This document shows, piece by piece, positions 1,011 to 15,853 of a stretch of 16,455 nucleotides of DNA. A program made the translations under genes and the position numbers. The first letter of the stretch is position 1; each line of letters starts with the position of its first letter. Origin of the DNA: an uncultured Desulfuromonadales bacterium (GTDB lineage: Bacteria > Desulfobacterota > Desulfuromonadia > Desulfuromonadales > Geopsychrobacteraceae); assembly GCA_947259685.1 (NCBI GenBank), contig CAMYNC010000085.1:28411-44865 (forward strand), in the 5' to 3' direction. The notes under the pieces are model-generated. The model saw only the letters and a list, made by a program, of their open reading frames with translations, was not told the origin of the DNA and searched no databases.

Positions 1011-1497
1011 ATGAGACAGGAAATTCCGTCGGTATTGAATCCGGTGGCTGCAGTATCGTTCGGATATGAATCCCTCTTCAGGTCCCCCTCTCTAAAACAC
1101 TTTGGTTTCGGAAATTCGTCCGGACGGCAAACAGATTACCAAAGACCCATAAGTAGAAAACAATCTAAACCATTCCCTTGCCAAGCCATAATCCTGCAGT
1201 AATGTTATAGGTGAATCGTCGCTTCTCATTAAGTAAATAAAAAACAGCGATGCCACGGGAGGGTAAATGCGGATACTCAGGTTCATACTCGTGGGCCATC
1301 CTATTACCATCAGGTAATACAATTTAAAAAGCAGTAAAACCGAGCAACACCTGAACGACGCGTTTGCAGGAAAATCACAGGCAAATCGTCGTTACCTGTT
1401 TTTTCATCCAAGGCTGACGTTGAAAGTTGCGCAGGCATTCGATATCGAATCCATCCATCCAACAACGCTGCAGCCTAATATCAGCGAGGTAAACATC
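1011..1497. other. Upstream region of katG1
   Basis: Nearly 490 bases with no supported gene. The short open frames (993-1202 plus, 1092-1322 minus) have no motifs and no ribosome binding sites. It contains a perfect 7-4-7 dyad at 1302-1319 overlapping a possible -10 (TACAAT, 1318-1323). Everything from there to 1497 would be the katG1 leader, ending in a GAGG ribosome binding site. Confidence 0.45.
1302..1323 (+). promoter_or_regulatory. Dyad and possible promoter upstream of katG1
   Basis: TATTACC-ATCA-GGTAATA (1302-1319) is a perfect inverted repeat with 7-bp arms. It overlaps a possible -10 element TACAAT (1318-1323), but there is no good -35 at the right spacing. The arrangement suggests a repressor operator or activator site. 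It does not resemble the Fur/PerR-like palindromes seen at 7551 and 8069. The leader to the katG1 start would be about 170 nt. Confidence 0.35.
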
Positions 1498-3789
1498 ATG
1501 AAAGCACACAATTTATTAATGACAATAGCATTGGCAGGAATGATGGCTTTGTCAATGGCGCCACAGGAAGCCATGGGCGAGGAATCAACACAAATTAGCA
1601 AGCCTCAAGGCACAGTTGGTACTGGCTCGTTCGCGGCTGGCCAAGCGCAATCAAATCAGTTTTGGTGGCCGGATCAGCTCAATCTTTCACCTCTACGCGA
1701 CCATGACGCACGCTCAAATCCGTTGGGTGAAGATTTCAACTATGCCGAAGCATTCAAGAAACTTGATCTGGAAGCGGTAAAGAAAGATATCGATACGCTA
1801 CTGACCACATCGCAGGACTGGTGGCCAGCGGATTTTGGTAATTATGGCCCGTTTTTCATTCGTATGGCATGGCACAGTGCAGGTACCTACCGCACGTTGG
1901 ATGGTCGCGGCGGTGGTGGCGGCGGACAGCAGCGCTTTGATCCACTCAATAGTTGGCCGGACAATGGCAATCTGGACAAGGCACGCCGCTTACTGTGGCC
2001 AGTGAAGCAAAAATACGGCGAGTCTCTCTCCTGGGGTGATCTGATGATTTTGACCGGTAATGTCGCACTGGAGAATATGGGCTTTGAAACCTATGGTTAT
2101 GCCGGTGGCCGTGCCGATGACTGGGAACCGGATCTAGTCTATTGGGGGCCGGAAGTGGCAATGCTAGCCAGCGACCGTCATGAAAAAGATGGTAGTTTGC
2201 AACGCCCGCTTGGTGCTACTCATATGGGCTTGATCTATGTAAACCCGGAAGGGCCGATGGGTCAACCTGATCCGGTCGGTTCGGCGAAAAACATTCGTGT
2301 GGCTTTTGGCCGCATGGCAATGAATGATGAAGAGACGGTTGCCTTGATCGCAGGTGGTCATACCTTTGGTAAAATGCACGGCGCGCATAAGCCAAGCGAT
2401 TGTCTGGGTGCAGAGCCCGCTGCTGCTCCGATTGAAGCACAAGACTTGGGCTGGGAAAATAAATGCGGCAAAGGCCATTCGGAAGATACGGTAACCAGTG
2501 GTTTGGAAGGTGCCTGGACGCAAGCGCCAACCCAGTGGACCACGCTGTATCTGTCAAATCTGCTCAATAACGAATGGGAGCAAACACGCAGCCCGGCCGG
2601 AGCTATTCAGTGGGTACCCAAAGACAAAAGCCTACATGAATTAGTACCGGATGCGCATATTAAAGGGAAGCGTAACCCACCCGTCATGACCACGGCTGAT
2701 TTGGCGGTGAAGTTTGACCCGGAATATAAAAAGATTGCTGAGCGTTTCCTGGCCAATCCGGATGAATATCAAAAAGCGTTTGCCAAAGCCTGGTATAAGC
2801 TGACGCATCGTGATATGGGGCCGCGCAGCCGCTATTTGGGCAAGAATGTGCCAACCGAAGAGCTTATTTGGCAAGACCCAATTCCGGCGGTTGATTATAA
2901 GCTTATTAGCAAAGGAGATGCTGAGGATCTGAAGGAAAAAATCCTCAAATCCGGCCTCGCCGTGCCTGAGCTGGTGCGTGCTGCATGGGCATCTGCTTCT
3001 ATCTTCCGGGCATCTGACATGCGTGGTGGTGCGAATGGGGCACGCATCCAGCTTGCACCGCAAAAAGGCTGGGAGGCCAATAACCCGGCTGAGCTGGCTA
3101 ACATACTGGAAAATCTTAAGGTAATTCAGAAAGACTTCAATGACTCGCATGCAGGGAGCAAGAAGGTCTCTATGGCAGACCTGATCGTTCTCTCTGGTGC
3201 CGCTGCGATTGAGAAGGCAGCTAAAGATGCCGGTGTAAAAGTGGAAGTACCCTTCACGCCGGGGCGTGCCGATGCAACTCAAGCGCAAACGGATGTAGAA
3301 TCTTTTGCCTTGCTCGAGCCAAAAGCCGATGCATTTCGCAATTACTTCAACAAGGAAGAAAGCTATCGCTCGCCGGCCGAAATGATGGTCGATAAGGCTG
3401 ATCAGCTGAATCTGACCCTGCCGGAAATGACGGTGCTTGTTGGCGGTATGCGTACGCTGGATGCCAACACAGGTGGCAAGAAGCACGGCGTGTTCACCAA
3501 CAAACCAGGTACGCTGACCAACGATTTCTTTGTGAATTTGCTGGATATGTCCACCAAGTGGCGCAAAGCGAAAACCGATGGTTTATATGAAGGCGTGGAT
3601 CGCAAAACCGGCAAGGTGAAGTACACCGCAACACCGGTCGATCTCATCTTCGGCTCCAATTCAGAGCTGCGGGCTGTTGCTGAAGTTTATGCATACGACA
3701 ACTCAAAAGAACGTTTTGTAAAAGACTTCGTCAATGCCTGGACCAAAGTGATGCAACTCGATCGCTTTGATCTAAAGCACAACCTCTAA
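1498..3789 (+). CDS. katG: Catalase-peroxidase KatG, exported (periplasmic) form
   Basis: A bifunctional haem enzyme that disproportionates H2O2 and also acts as a peroxidase. The 763-residue protein has the normal two-domain KatG length. Distal residues are R122, W125 and H126 in RMAWH, the proximal haem ligand is H288 in GGHTFGK, and W347 and D401 complete the proximal triad. The Trp-Tyr-Met adduct needed for catalase activity is intact (W125, Y247, M273, the last two 26 apart as in M. tuberculosis KatG). Start 1498 is preferred over the longer frame because of GAGG at 1485-1488 and because it begins a clear signal peptide with a hydrophobic core ([15 protein letters not shown]) and likely cleavage after AMG near residue 27. 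C302 and C323 flank an insertion and could form a disulfide outside the cytoplasm, as suggested for KatP-like enzymes. Codons are noticeably more AT-ended than in katG2, and an intron remnant lies upstream, so acquisition by transfer is plausible. Confidence 0.93.
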
Positions 3790-9482: not shown

Positions 9483-11720
<2,238 letters not shown>

Positions 11721-11820: not shown

Positions 11821-12157
11821 CGTTAATTGTCTGCTCTCCGCAGAAGCGGAGCCAGTAGAGACAGGTCCAGATCAGATTCCTACAAGTAGATATAATTGAG
11901 ACAATAAAATAGAAAAAACAGACCATGTCTTTATTTAACTAATTGATCAAAGAAGCTAAGAATAGACTAAAGTATTAATTTTCATAAAATTTCAGGAATG
12001 AAAGAGATATAACTCTCAACATATTTGTCTCTTCATAAGAAGGATGGTAAAAGTGAGGGAAAAAATAAAATTCTTCTAAATCTCAAATAGCCGCCATATC
12101 AATAAACTTTGGCTAGGGAATGTCTTTTTATTGTTACCAAAAATATGGAGATTACTC
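11821..12157. other. AT-rich intergenic region upstream of the tetrahaem cytochrome
   Basis: About 340 bases, much more AT-rich than the flanking genes, with no supported ORF. It includes a hairpin CTCCGC-AGAA-GCGGAG (11836-11851), a -10-like TATAAT (11891-11896) without a good -35, and a small dyad GAG-ATATAA-CTC around 12006. I looked for a cyclic-di-GMP (GEMM) riboswitch, common before cytochromes in this group, and do not see its conserved core. Confidence 0.35.
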
Positions 12158-12775
12158 ATGAAGGAACTAACTATCGGAACACTGGTGTTGTTTGTTGTTT
12201 TGTTAACAACCTTTTTGTTTTCAAGTTCAAATGTATGGGCCTGGGGTAGCAGTTCCCGGGGTAGCAGTTTTTGGGGGAGTAGTTCCAGTTCATATGGGGA
12301 TTCAAACGACAGCCCTTCCAATACCTCAGACAGTTCAAACGACAGCTCTTGGGGCTCCAGTGGGACCTCACGGGACGGCTCGACTAGCTGGTCAAGCTGG
12401 TCATATTCTGATAATGGTAGTTCTCTTTCCGAAGATTATTGCCGCAAGTGTCACTCGAATCTTGACCGGTTCGTGTTTTTGCAATATGAAAACCCTGACA
12501 AGCACCATCTTTTAGTCGATAAAACTATTCCAAAATACAGCGTTGCGCCGAATGACACCCCTGGGGACCTGTATGAATGTCTGACCTGCCACTCAGTGGA
12601 GTGGGTTGGCGACGCCTTCGAAATGAAGGTCACCCGTGATTGCCTTAAGTGTCATCCAATTAATACCGTTACTGGTTCCCCTCGTAGCAATAACGTCCAT
12701 CATCGCACAAAGACCTACAGATCCTTTAGCTGCAATATCTGCCACGGTGTCATTGGATGGGGTTGGGGGAGATAG
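12158..12775 (+). CDS. Exported tetrahaem c-type cytochrome with serine-rich stalk
   Basis: A 205-residue exported electron-transfer protein. The signal peptide has a hydrophobic core (IGTLVLFVVLLTTFLF) and probable cleavage after NVWA (residue 28). Residues 29-94 are low complexity: 30 of 66 are serine, with recurring WGSS units and Asp, Asn and Gly. The rest carries four haem motifs, CRKCH (95-99), CLTCH (141-145), CLKCH (162-166) and CNICH (192-196). There are no other cysteines. The only other histidines are two pairs, H116-H117 and H181-H182, exactly enough to ligate all four haems as bis-His. The start follows GGAG by 7 bases. It looks like a single-gene unit between terminators. It is related in general to the cytochrome c3/c7 world, but I cannot name a family; the partner redox protein is unknown. 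Confidence 0.85.
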   Translation: MKELTIGTLVLFVVLLTTFLFSSSNVWAWGSSSRGSSFWGSSSSSYGDSNDSPSNTSDSSNDSSWGSSGTSRDGSTSWSSWSYSDNGSSLSEDYCRKCHSNLDRFVFLQYENPDKHHLLVDKTIPKYSVAPNDTPGDLYECLTCHSVEWVGDAFEMKVTRDCLKCHPINTVTGSPRSNNVHHRTKTYRSFSCNICHGVIGWGWGR

Positions 12776-12847
12776 TGGCAGTTAAGGACAAGAGATAACA
12801 GATGATTCGAACGTAGGTGATATTAAATCACGATTTCAAGCACCACT

Positions 12848-12876
12848 AAGCCCCAACCTGAAACAGGTTGGGGCTT
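12848..12876. terminator. Strong bidirectional terminator after the cytochrome gene
   Basis: Perfect 13-bp arms AAGCCCCAACCTG (12848-12860) and CAGGTTGGGGCTT (12864-12876) enclose an AAA loop. The flanking T content is modest (CTTCTTATG on the plus side). Confidence 0.7.
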
Positions 12877-12880
12877 CTTA

Positions 12881-12906
12881 TGTTTGCCCAGCGGAGCTGG
12901 CAAACA
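12881..12906. terminator. Second hairpin between the convergent genes
   Basis: TGTTTGCC (12881-12888) and GGCAAACA (12899-12906) are perfect complements, with AGC/GCT extending the stem past one bulged C. No good T run follows on either strand. It is the middle one of three adjacent hairpins. Confidence 0.45.
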
Positions 12907-12940
12907 AAAAAACGCCCCCGCAATTAAATGCAGGGGCGTT
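12904..12940 (-). terminator. Rho-independent terminator for the minus-strand flavoprotein gene
   Basis: Read on the minus strand, AACGCCCCTGC (12940-12930) pairs with GCGGGGGCGTT (12921-12911) with one mismatch, followed by a run of T (the A run at 12904-12912). It lies 36 bases past the stop of the minus-strand gene. Confidence 0.75.
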
Positions 12941-12975
12941 CGAGTTTCAGTACTCAGATTGCCCCAGTGAGGCAA

Positions 12976-14691
12976 TCAGCCCCGCCGCCAGGCATGGTAT
13001 TTTTCGATCCACTCCAACAGCTTCTCCGGGGCATGATTTTTCTTCCAGACTCCGGCCGCCATCTTGTTCATTTCGGCCAGGGTCGGGTAAGTATGGATGG
13101 TGCCAAGGATTTTATTCAAGCCCAGTTTGTATTTCATCGCCAAAACATATTCGGCCAGCAGATCACCGGCATGGCTGCCGACAATGGTCACCCCAAGGAT
13201 GCTGTCGCTGCCCGGCTTGGTCAGCACCTTGACCCAGCCGTGATCTTCACTGTCAGCAATCGCCCGATCGAGATCGTCAATTTCATAGCGGGTCACCTCA
13301 AAGGCAATGTTCTGCTGCTTGGCTTCAGTTTCATTCAGGCCGACCCGGGCCACTTCTGCGTCGGTAAAAGTCGCCCAGGGGATCACCCGGTAGTCGGCCT
13401 TGAACTTCTTCAGTTCACCAAACAGGGCATTGACCGAGGCATACCAAGCCTGGTGGGCGGCAGTATGGGTAAATTGATAAGGTCCAGCCACATCCCCGGC
13501 ACAGAGGATATTGGGGAAATTGGTGCGCAGAAAAGGATCGCTGGCCAGGGTGCCGCGTTCACTGACCTGGACACCCAACTCTTCCAGACCGAAGCCGCTG
13601 ACGTTCGCTTTGCGACCGACAGCAATCAACAGCTGGTCAAACTCGACCTCGACCGTTTCACCGTCCTGTTCACAGACCAACCATTGCCGATCTGAATCGA
13701 CCTTTACCTCCTTGGCGGCATGTCCGGTCAGGACCTGAATCCCTTCTGCCTCGAACTTCTGCTGGATGTATTCACCGACCTCGGGGTCTTCCCGCGCCAT
13801 AATCCGCGGCAGCATCTCAATTTGCGTCACCTGGCTGCCGAGCCGGGCAAACGCCTGGGTCAACTCACTGCCAATCGGGCCACCACCAAGGACGACCAAT
13901 CTCTTTGGCAGTTCGCGCAAACTCCAGACATTATCGGAGGTCAGATAGTCGATCTGCTCCAAACCCTGAATTGGCGGTACGAACGGCCGGGCACCGGTGG
14001 CAATAATAATGCTGCGGGTAGTCAGAATCTTACCGTCGGCTTCCACCGTCCAGGGCGAAGTGACCTTCGCCTCCCCTGCGATCACTTCAACGCCAAGTTC
14101 GGTGTAGCGCTCCACCGAATCGTGCGGCTCGACCTTTTTAACCACCTGCTGAACCCGCTCCATCACCTCGGCAAAATCGAACTCGACCTCAGTCTTCTTG
14201 AAACCAAACTCCTTAGCCCGCTTGGCGTAGGAAAGCATCTTGGCACTACGGATCAATGCCTTACTCGGCACGCAGCCAGTGTTCAGGCAATCGCCACCCA
14301 TCTGGTGTTTTTCGATCAAGGCCACCTTGGCCTTGACCGCCGCCGCAATGTAACTGCTGACCAATCCGGCGCTGCCGGCGCCGATCACCACTAAGTTGTA
14401 GTCGAACCTCTCAGGCCGCTCAAAATCCTTGAACACCTTGCGGGACTGAACAACATCAAGAACCTTTTTGGCAACCAAAGGAAAAATTCCCAGCAGGGCA
14501 AAAGAAAAAATGATCCCCGGAGAAAGGATCCCGGCAGCGCTTTCCAACTGCCCGATCTGGGTGCCGGCGTTCACATAAACAAAGGTCCCGGCGAGCATCC
14601 CGACCTGACTGACGAGATAGAACAGCGAGGTCTTCAGCGGCGTTAGCCCCATCAGCAGATTGATCACAAAGAAAGGGAATATCGGTACCAA
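12976..14691 (-). CDS. FAD-dependent disulfide oxidoreductase part (3' fragment of the fusion)
   Basis: This open frame of 571 residues holds the last part of the membrane domain (1-75, three probable hydrophobic helices, with PIFPFFVINLLMGLT) and a complete class I pyridine nucleotide-disulfide oxidoreductase. FAD binding is at GAGSAG (104-109), the redox-active pair C135/C140 is in GGDCLNTGCVPSK, NAD(P) binding is in VVLGGGPIGSE, the second FAD contact is LCAGDVAG, and the dimerisation domain carries the catalytic HTYPTLAE histidine and glutamate. It resembles MerA and dihydrolipoamide dehydrogenase, but it lacks an NmerA domain and the C-terminal Cys pair of mercuric reductase, so mercury reduction is not supported. 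The start at 14691 is only a TTG without a ribosome binding site; the natural start is at 15134. Confidence 0.8.
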   Translation of the reverse strand: MVPIFPFFVINLLMGLTPLKTSLFYLVSQVGMLAGTFVYVNAGTQIGQLESAAGILSPGIIFSFALLGIFPLVAKKVLDVVQSRKVFKDFERPERFDYNLVVIGAGSAGLVSSYIAAAVKAKVALIEKHQMGGDCLNTGCVPSKALIRSAKMLSYAKRAKEFGFKKTEVEFDFAEVMERVQQVVKKVEPHDSVERYTELGVEVIAGEAKVTSPWTVEADGKILTTRSIIIATGARPFVPPIQGLEQIDYLTSDNVWSLRELPKRLVVLGGGPIGSELTQAFARLGSQVTQIEMLPRIMAREDPEVGEYIQQKFEAEGIQVLTGHAAKEVKVDSDRQWLVCEQDGETVEVEFDQLLIAVGRKANVSGFGLEELGVQVSERGTLASDPFLRTNFPNILCAGDVAGPYQFTHTAAHQAWYASVNALFGELKKFKADYRVIPWATFTDAEVARVGLNETEAKQQNIAFEVTRYEIDDLDRAIADSEDHGWVKVLTKPGSDSILGVTIVGSHAGDLLAEYVLAMKYKLGLNKILGTIHTYPTLAEMNKMAAGVWKKNHAPEKLLEWIEKYHAWRRG

Positions 14692-15134
14692 CCGAAGCGA
14701 AAACAGGTAGAAAGCGAAAACAGGTAGAAAGCGCCCTCCTTTTCCACCCCATCGTTAATCGCCTTGAGCTTGTCGCCGAACTTGCCCTGCACCCAGTCGC
14801 GAAGCAGAAAGCGTGAGACCAAAAACGCCAGGGTGGCACCGATACTGCTGGCAAAACTGACTACGATCAGCGCCGCCCAGAGCCCGAACAGTGCCCCGCC
14901 GGCCAGGGTCATCACCGCTGCCCCCGGCAAGGAGAGTGCGGTCACCAGCACATAGATGACAAAATAGGCCAACAACGTCGAAAAACGGTTCTGCTGATAA
15001 TATTCGTTGAACGCCTGCTGCTGACTCTTAAGATAATCAAGGGTCAGATATTGGCCCAGATCAAAGGCGAAAAACAGGATCACCAGCAGGGCGATCGCCA
15101 GGATCAGGACAATTTTTGTCGTGCGACTCTTCAT
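14664..15134 (-). CDS. TVP38/TMEM64 (VTT) membrane domain (5' fragment of the fusion)
   Basis: A 156-residue open frame starting at ATG 15134 behind AGGAGGAAC on the minus strand. It has an N-terminal membrane anchor (IVLILAIALLVILFFAF), then the VTT-domain hallmark LPGAAVMTLAGGALFG and the FASSIGATLAFLVSRFLL helix. After GAFYLFSL it enters the duplicated 17 bases and continues in the wrong frame for about 17 residues (STCFRFGWYRYSLSL) to a stop. The fragment lacks the rest of the domain and is unlikely to fold. An alternative longer start at 15245 would overlap the divergent gene and has no support. Confidence 0.75.
   Translation of the reverse strand: MKSRTTKIVLILAIALLVILFFAFDLGQYLTLDYLKSQQQAFNEYYQQNRFSTLLAYFVIYVLVTALSLPGAAVMTLAGGALFGLWAALIVVSFASSIGATLAFLVSRFLLRDWVQGKFGDKLKAINDGVEKEGAFYLFSLSTCFRFGWYRYSLSL
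14697..14730. repeat. 17-bp perfect tandem duplication
   Basis: GCGAAAACAGGTAGAAA occurs twice in immediate succession (14697-14713 and 14714-14730); the period-17 tract extends over 14695-14733. Seventeen is not a multiple of three, so it shifts the reading frame of the minus-strand fusion gene. No comparable repeat is seen elsewhere in the gene. Confidence 0.95.
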
Positions 15135-15219
15135 ATTCGATGTTCCTCCTCGGCATTGGGCAAATGAGCCACCGCAAGTGTAACAGAAATCAGCAGCTCC
15201 TCGGACGAGTAAATCAGGG

Positions 15220-15225
15220 TATAAT
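15220..15225 (+). promoter_or_regulatory. -10 element adjacent to the start codon (possible leaderless transcript)
   Basis: A consensus TATAAT ends 7 bases before ATG 15233, so transcription would begin at or next to the A of the start codon. No Shine-Dalgarno sequence precedes the ATG. The -35 position (15197-15202, CTCCTC) is poor. Confidence 0.45.
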
Positions 15226-15232
15226 CTGCACC

Positions 15233-15853
15233 ATGCGCGAACCAAAATTCGATCCGAAAAAAATTTATCGCCACGATGATAAGACCGGCAGCTTTTTTAT
15301 CGACATCGATCTGGACTATTATCGAGAGCTCTACAGCGAGTGGGATTTTTCGCCCCAGCGCAACCGCGACCTCGATGAAGATCTGCTGGAATATTTACGC
15401 GACTGCAGCGACGAAATTCCTCGCCGCGCACCACTGATCCTGGTCATGCGCCTGCCCCAGGAGGTCTACAACCCTATCAAGGAAGGCAGAGCGACCGAGG
15501 GATTCAAGAACTTCTTCACCTACCTGATTCGCCGCGAAAAAAACCGCAGCAAAGGCTACTATTCTCGGATTGTCAAATTCCTCATTCTCGGAGCTCTGCT
15601 GCTGGTTCTGGCCTCGCTGCTAAAGAAATTCCTGGCCTCCATTGCGCACAACGAACTGCTGATTGAAGGATTGATCATCGGGGCCTGGGTTTCGATCTGG
15701 GAGGTCTTTTCGATTCTGTTCTTCAAACTCTCCGAGCATCGCAAAAAGATAGCCTGCTATCGACGCTTGCAGAAGGCAAAAATCGATTACCTTTACCGCC
15801 CCGGCCCCCTGCAGCAGAATCCGACTCCGGACCAAGCCGATTTACGCCACTAA
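15233..15853 (+). CDS. Unrecognised membrane protein with two TM helices
   Basis: A 206-residue protein that I cannot assign to a family. Residues 1-110 are soluble, acidic and aromatic (IDIDLDYYRELYSEWDF; later EVYNPIKEGRATEGFKNFF). Two probable transmembrane helices follow, about 114-130 (VKFLILGALLLVLASLL) and 142-164, then a basic tail (KLSEHRKKIACYRRLQKAK) and a Pro-rich end. Both termini are predicted on the same side, probably cytoplasmic given the flanking Arg/Lys. ATG 15233 is the only start before the conserved-looking MREPKFDPKKIY; the longer upstream frame would run through the promoter. It diverges from the TVP38-fusion gene with 98 bases between, and may form a unit with the exported protein downstream. 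Confidence 0.75.
   Translation: MREPKFDPKKIYRHDDKTGSFFIDIDLDYYRELYSEWDFSPQRNRDLDEDLLEYLRDCSDEIPRRAPLILVMRLPQEVYNPIKEGRATEGFKNFFTYLIRREKNRSKGYYSRIVKFLILGALLLVLASLLKKFLASIAHNELLIEGLIIGAWVSIWEVFSILFFKLSEHRKKIACYRRLQKAKIDYLYRPGPLQQNPTPDQADLRH

Follow-up and report, generated by a model that had tools for sequence, protein, structure and literature searches.

A 17-bp tandem duplication divides a VTT domain-oxidoreductase fusion gene of an uncultured Desulfuromonadales bacterium

In a 16,455-nucleotide stretch of DNA from an uncultured Desulfuromonadales bacterium (hereafter, the window), a minus-strand fusion gene lies in two overlapping reading frames, 14664-15134 and 12976-14691, which raises the question whether this gene has recently been broken, is switched on and off, works as two separate genes, or is split only in the assembly. 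An earlier note on this DNA had placed an exact 17-bp tandem duplication at 14697..14730, within an otherwise intact gene for a TVP38-flavoprotein fusion, and had proposed either a recent inactivation or an on/off switch.

The duplication is borne out by the window sequence, the range given in the earlier note sitting inside a maximal exact period-17 tract of 39 nt (17+17+5; 14695-14733) with a period-17 identity run of 22 nt, which Tandem Repeats Finder reports as 2.3 copies of period 17 with 100% matches (Table 1). Nowhere else in the window does an exact tandem exceed 18 nt (periods 6-199), and the longest exact tandem among 60 random first-order Markov sequences of the window was 18 nt (periods 8-40); a chance origin is ruled out. 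Given that 17 is not a multiple of three, the frame is left inside the VTT domain, and the N-terminal fragment ends at a stop codon at 14664-14666. Aside from the duplication, the gene contains no further stop or frameshift. Deletion of one copy yields, as had been calculated, a frame of 713 codons, a length that fits the relatives, of which 113 of the 120 listed have at least 700 aa, mostly 713-720. A DNA hairpin was considered as the cause of the duplication and dropped, the segment 14640-14790 folding no better than its shuffles (z 0.55).

Table 1 Coordinates of the split gene, its signals, and the repeat copies in the window.
Feature	Position	Strand	Content or basis
N-terminal fragment, 156 aa from ATG at 15134	14664..15134	-	First part of TVP38/VTT domain plus 15-residue out-of-frame tail, ends in TGA
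C-terminal fragment, 571 aa from TTG or 558 aa from ATG at 14652	12976..14691	-	Remainder of VTT plus complete FAD/NAD(P) oxidoreductase, disulphide reductase superfamily
ATG, candidate (putative) restart codon, 11 nt downstream of the N-fragment stop	14650..14652	-	No Shine-Dalgarno-like sequence by eye
Ribosome-binding site AGGAGG of the fusion gene	15145..15150	-	Ahead of the ATG at 15134
Intrinsic-terminator-like hairpin, 13 pairs, plus T run, 3' of the gene	12910..12941	-	Strong hairpin
Repeat copy 1 on the plus strand (second in gene order)	14695..14711	-	Exact-repeat search, Tandem Repeats Finder
Repeat copy 2 on the plus strand, identical and adjoining	14712..14728	-	Exact-repeat search, Tandem Repeats Finder
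Partial third copy, 5 nt, AAGCG on the plus strand, as the short bordering repeat that slippage would call for	14729..14733	-	

The domain architecture places the break in the middle of the VTT domain, at the point that follows residue 141 of the intact relative P0003. The N frame matches positions 4-78 of the 123 positions of the Pfam VTT profile (E 1.3e-9), and the C frame continues with positions 79-122, a weak match below the family cut-off (E 0.00033), followed by complete Pyr_redox_2 (3.3e-66) and Pyr_redox_dim (1.1e-27) domains. In the intact relatives P0003 and P0002, VTT is continuous (residues 73-186) and precedes the same two domains, such that PF09335, PF07992 and PF02852 follow one another in one protein, whereas in the window all three are present but spread across two frames, and the single open frame of the fusion type is lost. 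The window gene is a broken member of the VTT plus oxidoreductase fusion type, the class being assigned here by domain content and the TVP38/TMEM64 label being taken from the names of the listed proteins P0118 and P0179. Hydrophobic stretches flank the break on both sides. The predicted structure of P0003, built from a 26-sequence alignment, is too poor to use (mean pLDDT 62, pTM 0.51), with pLDDT below 50 for residues 107-161, which include the break site. Fusions of this kind are already known: in PMC10127716, DedA fusions of COG0398 with PF07992 and PF02852 are given as the commonest domain fusions of that subfamily, and their likeness to the intact relatives described here is one of domain content, whereas the window copy differs from them in being broken inside the VTT domain. 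A literature search for a fusion of TVP38 with dihydrolipoamide dehydrogenase gave no match. The window gene is thus a fresh instance of known things.

Both the expression signals and the catalytic residues had been described as intact, and each description holds in part. The AGGAGG and the terminator-like hairpin are in place, but the promoter sites are at chance level (3 in a scan of 12700-15400, against 1.6 +/- 1.4 by chance). The database entry for the C-terminal fragment, P0001, corresponds to its 558 aa version starting at the ATG at 14652. Likewise, the reductase retains the CxxxxC motif (GGDCLNTGCVPSK), but its C-terminal motif reads H-T-Y-P-T, against H-x-H-P-T in the dihydrolipoamide dehydrogenases 2eq6 and 1ebd; the second histidine of this motif is the usual catalytic base in disulphide reductases. 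A tyrosine occupies the same position in the mercuric reductase 5x1y and is invariant in 26 of 26 aligned relatives (Y677); being common to all of them, it is a constitutional feature of the fusion family and not damage. An assignment of the reductase part as a MerA or lipoamide dehydrogenase equivalog was rejected, both curated scores being below the cut-off (394.2 bits vs 454.45 for MerA, TIGR02053; 401.3 bits vs 408.8 for dihydrolipoyl dehydrogenase, TIGR01350, with 401.6 for the intact P0003). The best NCBIfam match, NF004991 (FAD-containing oxidoreductase), also falls below its cut-off (521.6 bits vs 620).

The claim that the duplication splits a gene that is intact in the relatives is supported by comparison with related genomes. 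The closest genome locus (L001/L112, in G001, an uncultured Desulfuromonadales MAG; 87% amino acid identity over the C fragment) aligns with a gap of exactly 17 nt at the duplication site and lacks both the second copy and the AAGCG pair. Synteny with G001 covers the fusion gene and, beyond it, two divergent genes with 79% and 70% amino acid identity, and the window genes on the other side of the fusion gene have no match at 1e-5 in the 19,249-bp contig of G001. Among the 119 loci examined, 10 were removed as identical translations, 4 were uninformative or unlike, and 105 distinct loci (57-87% identity) keep a frame that is open across the junction and extends at least 137 codons upstream of the C fragment; in none of these 105 do the 17 extra bases occur within a working frame. 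Loci L115 and L117 stop at contig edges. In L075 (near 1483) and L116 (near 4757), resemblance to the fusion gene ends at about residue 60, with unrelated DNA upstream, which points to rearranged or chimeric contigs. Across the 136 genomes of the order, 84 have a match at E <= 1e-120, and 72 match rows begin at the first residue of the C fragment, every one of them with an open frame across the junction. One fusion gene of the order (G074:C61:1483-1914) carries a single in-frame TAG further upstream, in the N-terminal part, with the junction open. In a search through a set of 5.77 billion proteins (with 7999 and 8000 candidates considered for the two fragments, the best 120 being listed per search), each fragment appears once among the matches listed (P0121 and P0001, with one member each, on one contig of 54,013 bp); within the best 120, the C fragment's next relative has 88% identity and is an intact protein of 717 aa, and there is no one-copy sibling of the same species.

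The rest of the window contains several features of separate interest. Two genes for KatG (catalase-peroxidase), at 1420-3789 and 9525-11720, lie within about 10 kb and are 62% identical, the first with an N-terminal extension that, by eye, resembles a signal peptide. The pair surrounds a Fur-family regulator, rubrerythrin, a ferritin-like protein and an old-yellow-enzyme homologue, the whole making up a peroxide-defence cluster. At 12131-12775, there is a gene for a protein resembling multihaem cytochromes c, in which degenerate 15-bp tandem repeats (12240-12286) encode a segment rich in Ser and Gly. RNA families and tRNAs were searched for in the window, and none was found; a plasmid origin was rejected, with no match in the plasmid collection ('near' mode).

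With regard to the age of the lesion, the remainder of the fusion gene looks to be under normal constraint. Compared with G001, dN/dS is 0.089 over the initial 141 codons, the N part, and 0.076 over the C fragment, some other orthologue pairs being near or at synonymous saturation, one with infinite dS. At sites invariant in five other orthologues, the window has 0 private changes among 99 sites of the N part and 6 among 374 of the C part; in the other five orthologues, there are 1-5 and 12-22 such changes, respectively (15-26 in total each), so that in plain counts the window has the fewest private amino acid changes of the six. Because there is no other decay, private changes are few and dN/dS is 0.076-0.089, the duplication is very recent, or a minority allele, or not real, and the absence of further decay suits recency, error and a minority allele equally well. 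The proposal of a recent inactivation stands in this form: the lesion, if real, is recent, given the normal constraint elsewhere and the intact relatives.

The 5-nt flanking repeat is a mark of slipped mispairing, although it could arise in amplification too; at other breakpoints in the window, a repeat of this length occurs with a frequency of 0.0031 (period 17) or 0.0066 (periods 8-40). Slipped mispairing between the two copies of the 5-nt direct repeat during replication most likely produced the 17-bp duplication; translation leaves the frame inside VTT and stops 15 codons later, the membrane half is shortened, and the reductase is no longer made as part of the fusion, leaving at most a reductase-only product through a weak restart at the ATG past the stop, so that function is presumably lost. 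The simplest reading is that slippage very recently duplicated the unit in a single clone, or that the sequence shows one of the alleles in a mixed population; to an ordinary, very recent slippage duplication of 17 bp in a known type of fusion gene we assign a probability of roughly 60%. A literature search on slippage in E. coli gave no relevant match.

The rival explanations turn on how the same few observations are read. That the allele is carried, among the matches listed, by one assembled molecule counts against a lesion that is presumably present in real cells, and equally against a functional split, but is what would be expected if the second copy is an artefact, either from PCR or sequencing stutter that affected a few reads or from contigs joined with a short overlap left in both. 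Beyond the duplication, constraint on the gene matches that on its intact relatives, and spurious ends do occur among database entries of the fusion family (P0159, P0151 and P0216, whose tails we take to be translated sequencing-adapter sequence), all of which would suit an artefact. However, contigs could be carelessly joined without any 5-nt repeat at the breakpoint, such a repeat is rare by chance, the 39-nt tract fits within single reads, the window contains no N, and seven other window genes (two katG and those for old yellow enzyme, oligoribonuclease, Fur family, rubrerythrin and ferritin-like proteins) each align with their family over almost the full length in a single frame. An artefact is the next most likely reading, at a rather low probability. 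That the split is functional, with both parts made and a separate reductase produced by restart at 14652 or from another start, is very unlikely. The stop and the ATG are close together, and standalone TVP38 proteins as well as standalone reductases of the fusion family exist in the order, but the break cuts VTT in mid-domain (between profile positions 78 and 79), the standalone TVP38 frames seen in the order are mostly 228-285 codons long, the matches to standalone reductases mostly begin near residue 92 of the C fragment, and no Shine-Dalgarno-like sequence precedes 14652 or 14691 by eye.

An on/off switch, that is, a reversible contingency allele in which the extra copy is lost and regained with both states present in the population, requires more detailed consideration. 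Any exact tandem duplication may spontaneously lose one copy, exact tandem repeats being able to contract, and the absence of decay would suit repeated return to one copy. Among the features of a phase-variable locus, an exact tandem duplication of a length not divisible by three, inside an open reading frame, is present, but recurrence of the repeat in related lineages is not seen, with the frame broken at this site in 0 of 105 related loci and the flanking repeat pair not kept in G001. Furthermore, there are only two copies, and, counting the present duplication, the fusion gene contains 91 direct-repeat pairs of at least 5 nt at 8-40 nt, of which 41 have a frame-shifting spacing (98 and 29, respectively, in the G001 orthologue); with so many short-repeat pairs in the gene, such accidents are possible at many places. 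Frames are indeed lost at other places in the fusion family: judged by eye from the tails, near residue 161 in P0192, near 164 in P0184, near 190 in P0157 and before 139 in P0191. P0125 (on a 93,298-bp contig) loses the frame about five codons before the duplication; its DNA was not found in the 136 genomes of the order (best identity 76%). Of the 120 listed matches to the N fragment, 24 (its own entry, P0121, included) end before residue 205 of P0003, and the ends of the incomplete relatives are somewhat denser near the site: of the other 22, with ends within residues 133-204, 9 fall at 133-150 (binomial p 0.07, post hoc). Adapter-like tails account for three of these nine, and many of the incomplete matches are simply cut or adapter-ended. 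Together with P0125, this clustering is a weak hint of a hot spot, mixed with artefacts. The protein search admits 0.55 to 1.75 times the query length and so selects truncated proteins; therefore, a rate of frame loss is not derivable from the listing.

Related duplications have been described elsewhere. In the pneumococcal type 3 locus, cap8E and tts, spontaneous intragenic tandem duplications are reported to control phase variation of capsule genes (Waite et al. 2001, 2003, as cited in PMC4022640); the likeness is a tandem duplication that shuts a gene from inside its open reading frame, and the difference is that phase variation is attested there, by the titles of those papers, whereas the window holds one static sequence of a gene that is not a capsule gene. 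In fission yeast, ssp1 is reported to undergo reversible microhomology-mediated tandem duplication (review PMC13207564), and resembles the window gene in the short flanking repeat, the one extra copy and the premature stop; the window case differs in being bacterial and known from one sequence. Tandem repeats in M. tuberculosis are the subject of PMC12817950. With no one-copy sibling among the best 120 proteins listed, a repeat private to the window and 91 comparable repeat pairs in the same gene, the proposed switch is not sustained, and we consider it improbable. More doubtful still is that a reversible allele switches off a membrane-bound flavin oxidoreductase in part of an anaerobic desulfuromonad population; if true, this would be bet-hedging at a locus that belongs neither to a pathogen nor to a surface antigen.

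Taken as a very recent slippage duplication, the locus is a clean example of a short duplication breaking a gene, with the intact relatives dating the duplication as very recent. If both alleles are present, it would be an instance of reversible gene loss that is easy to test, and in an anaerobe from the environment.
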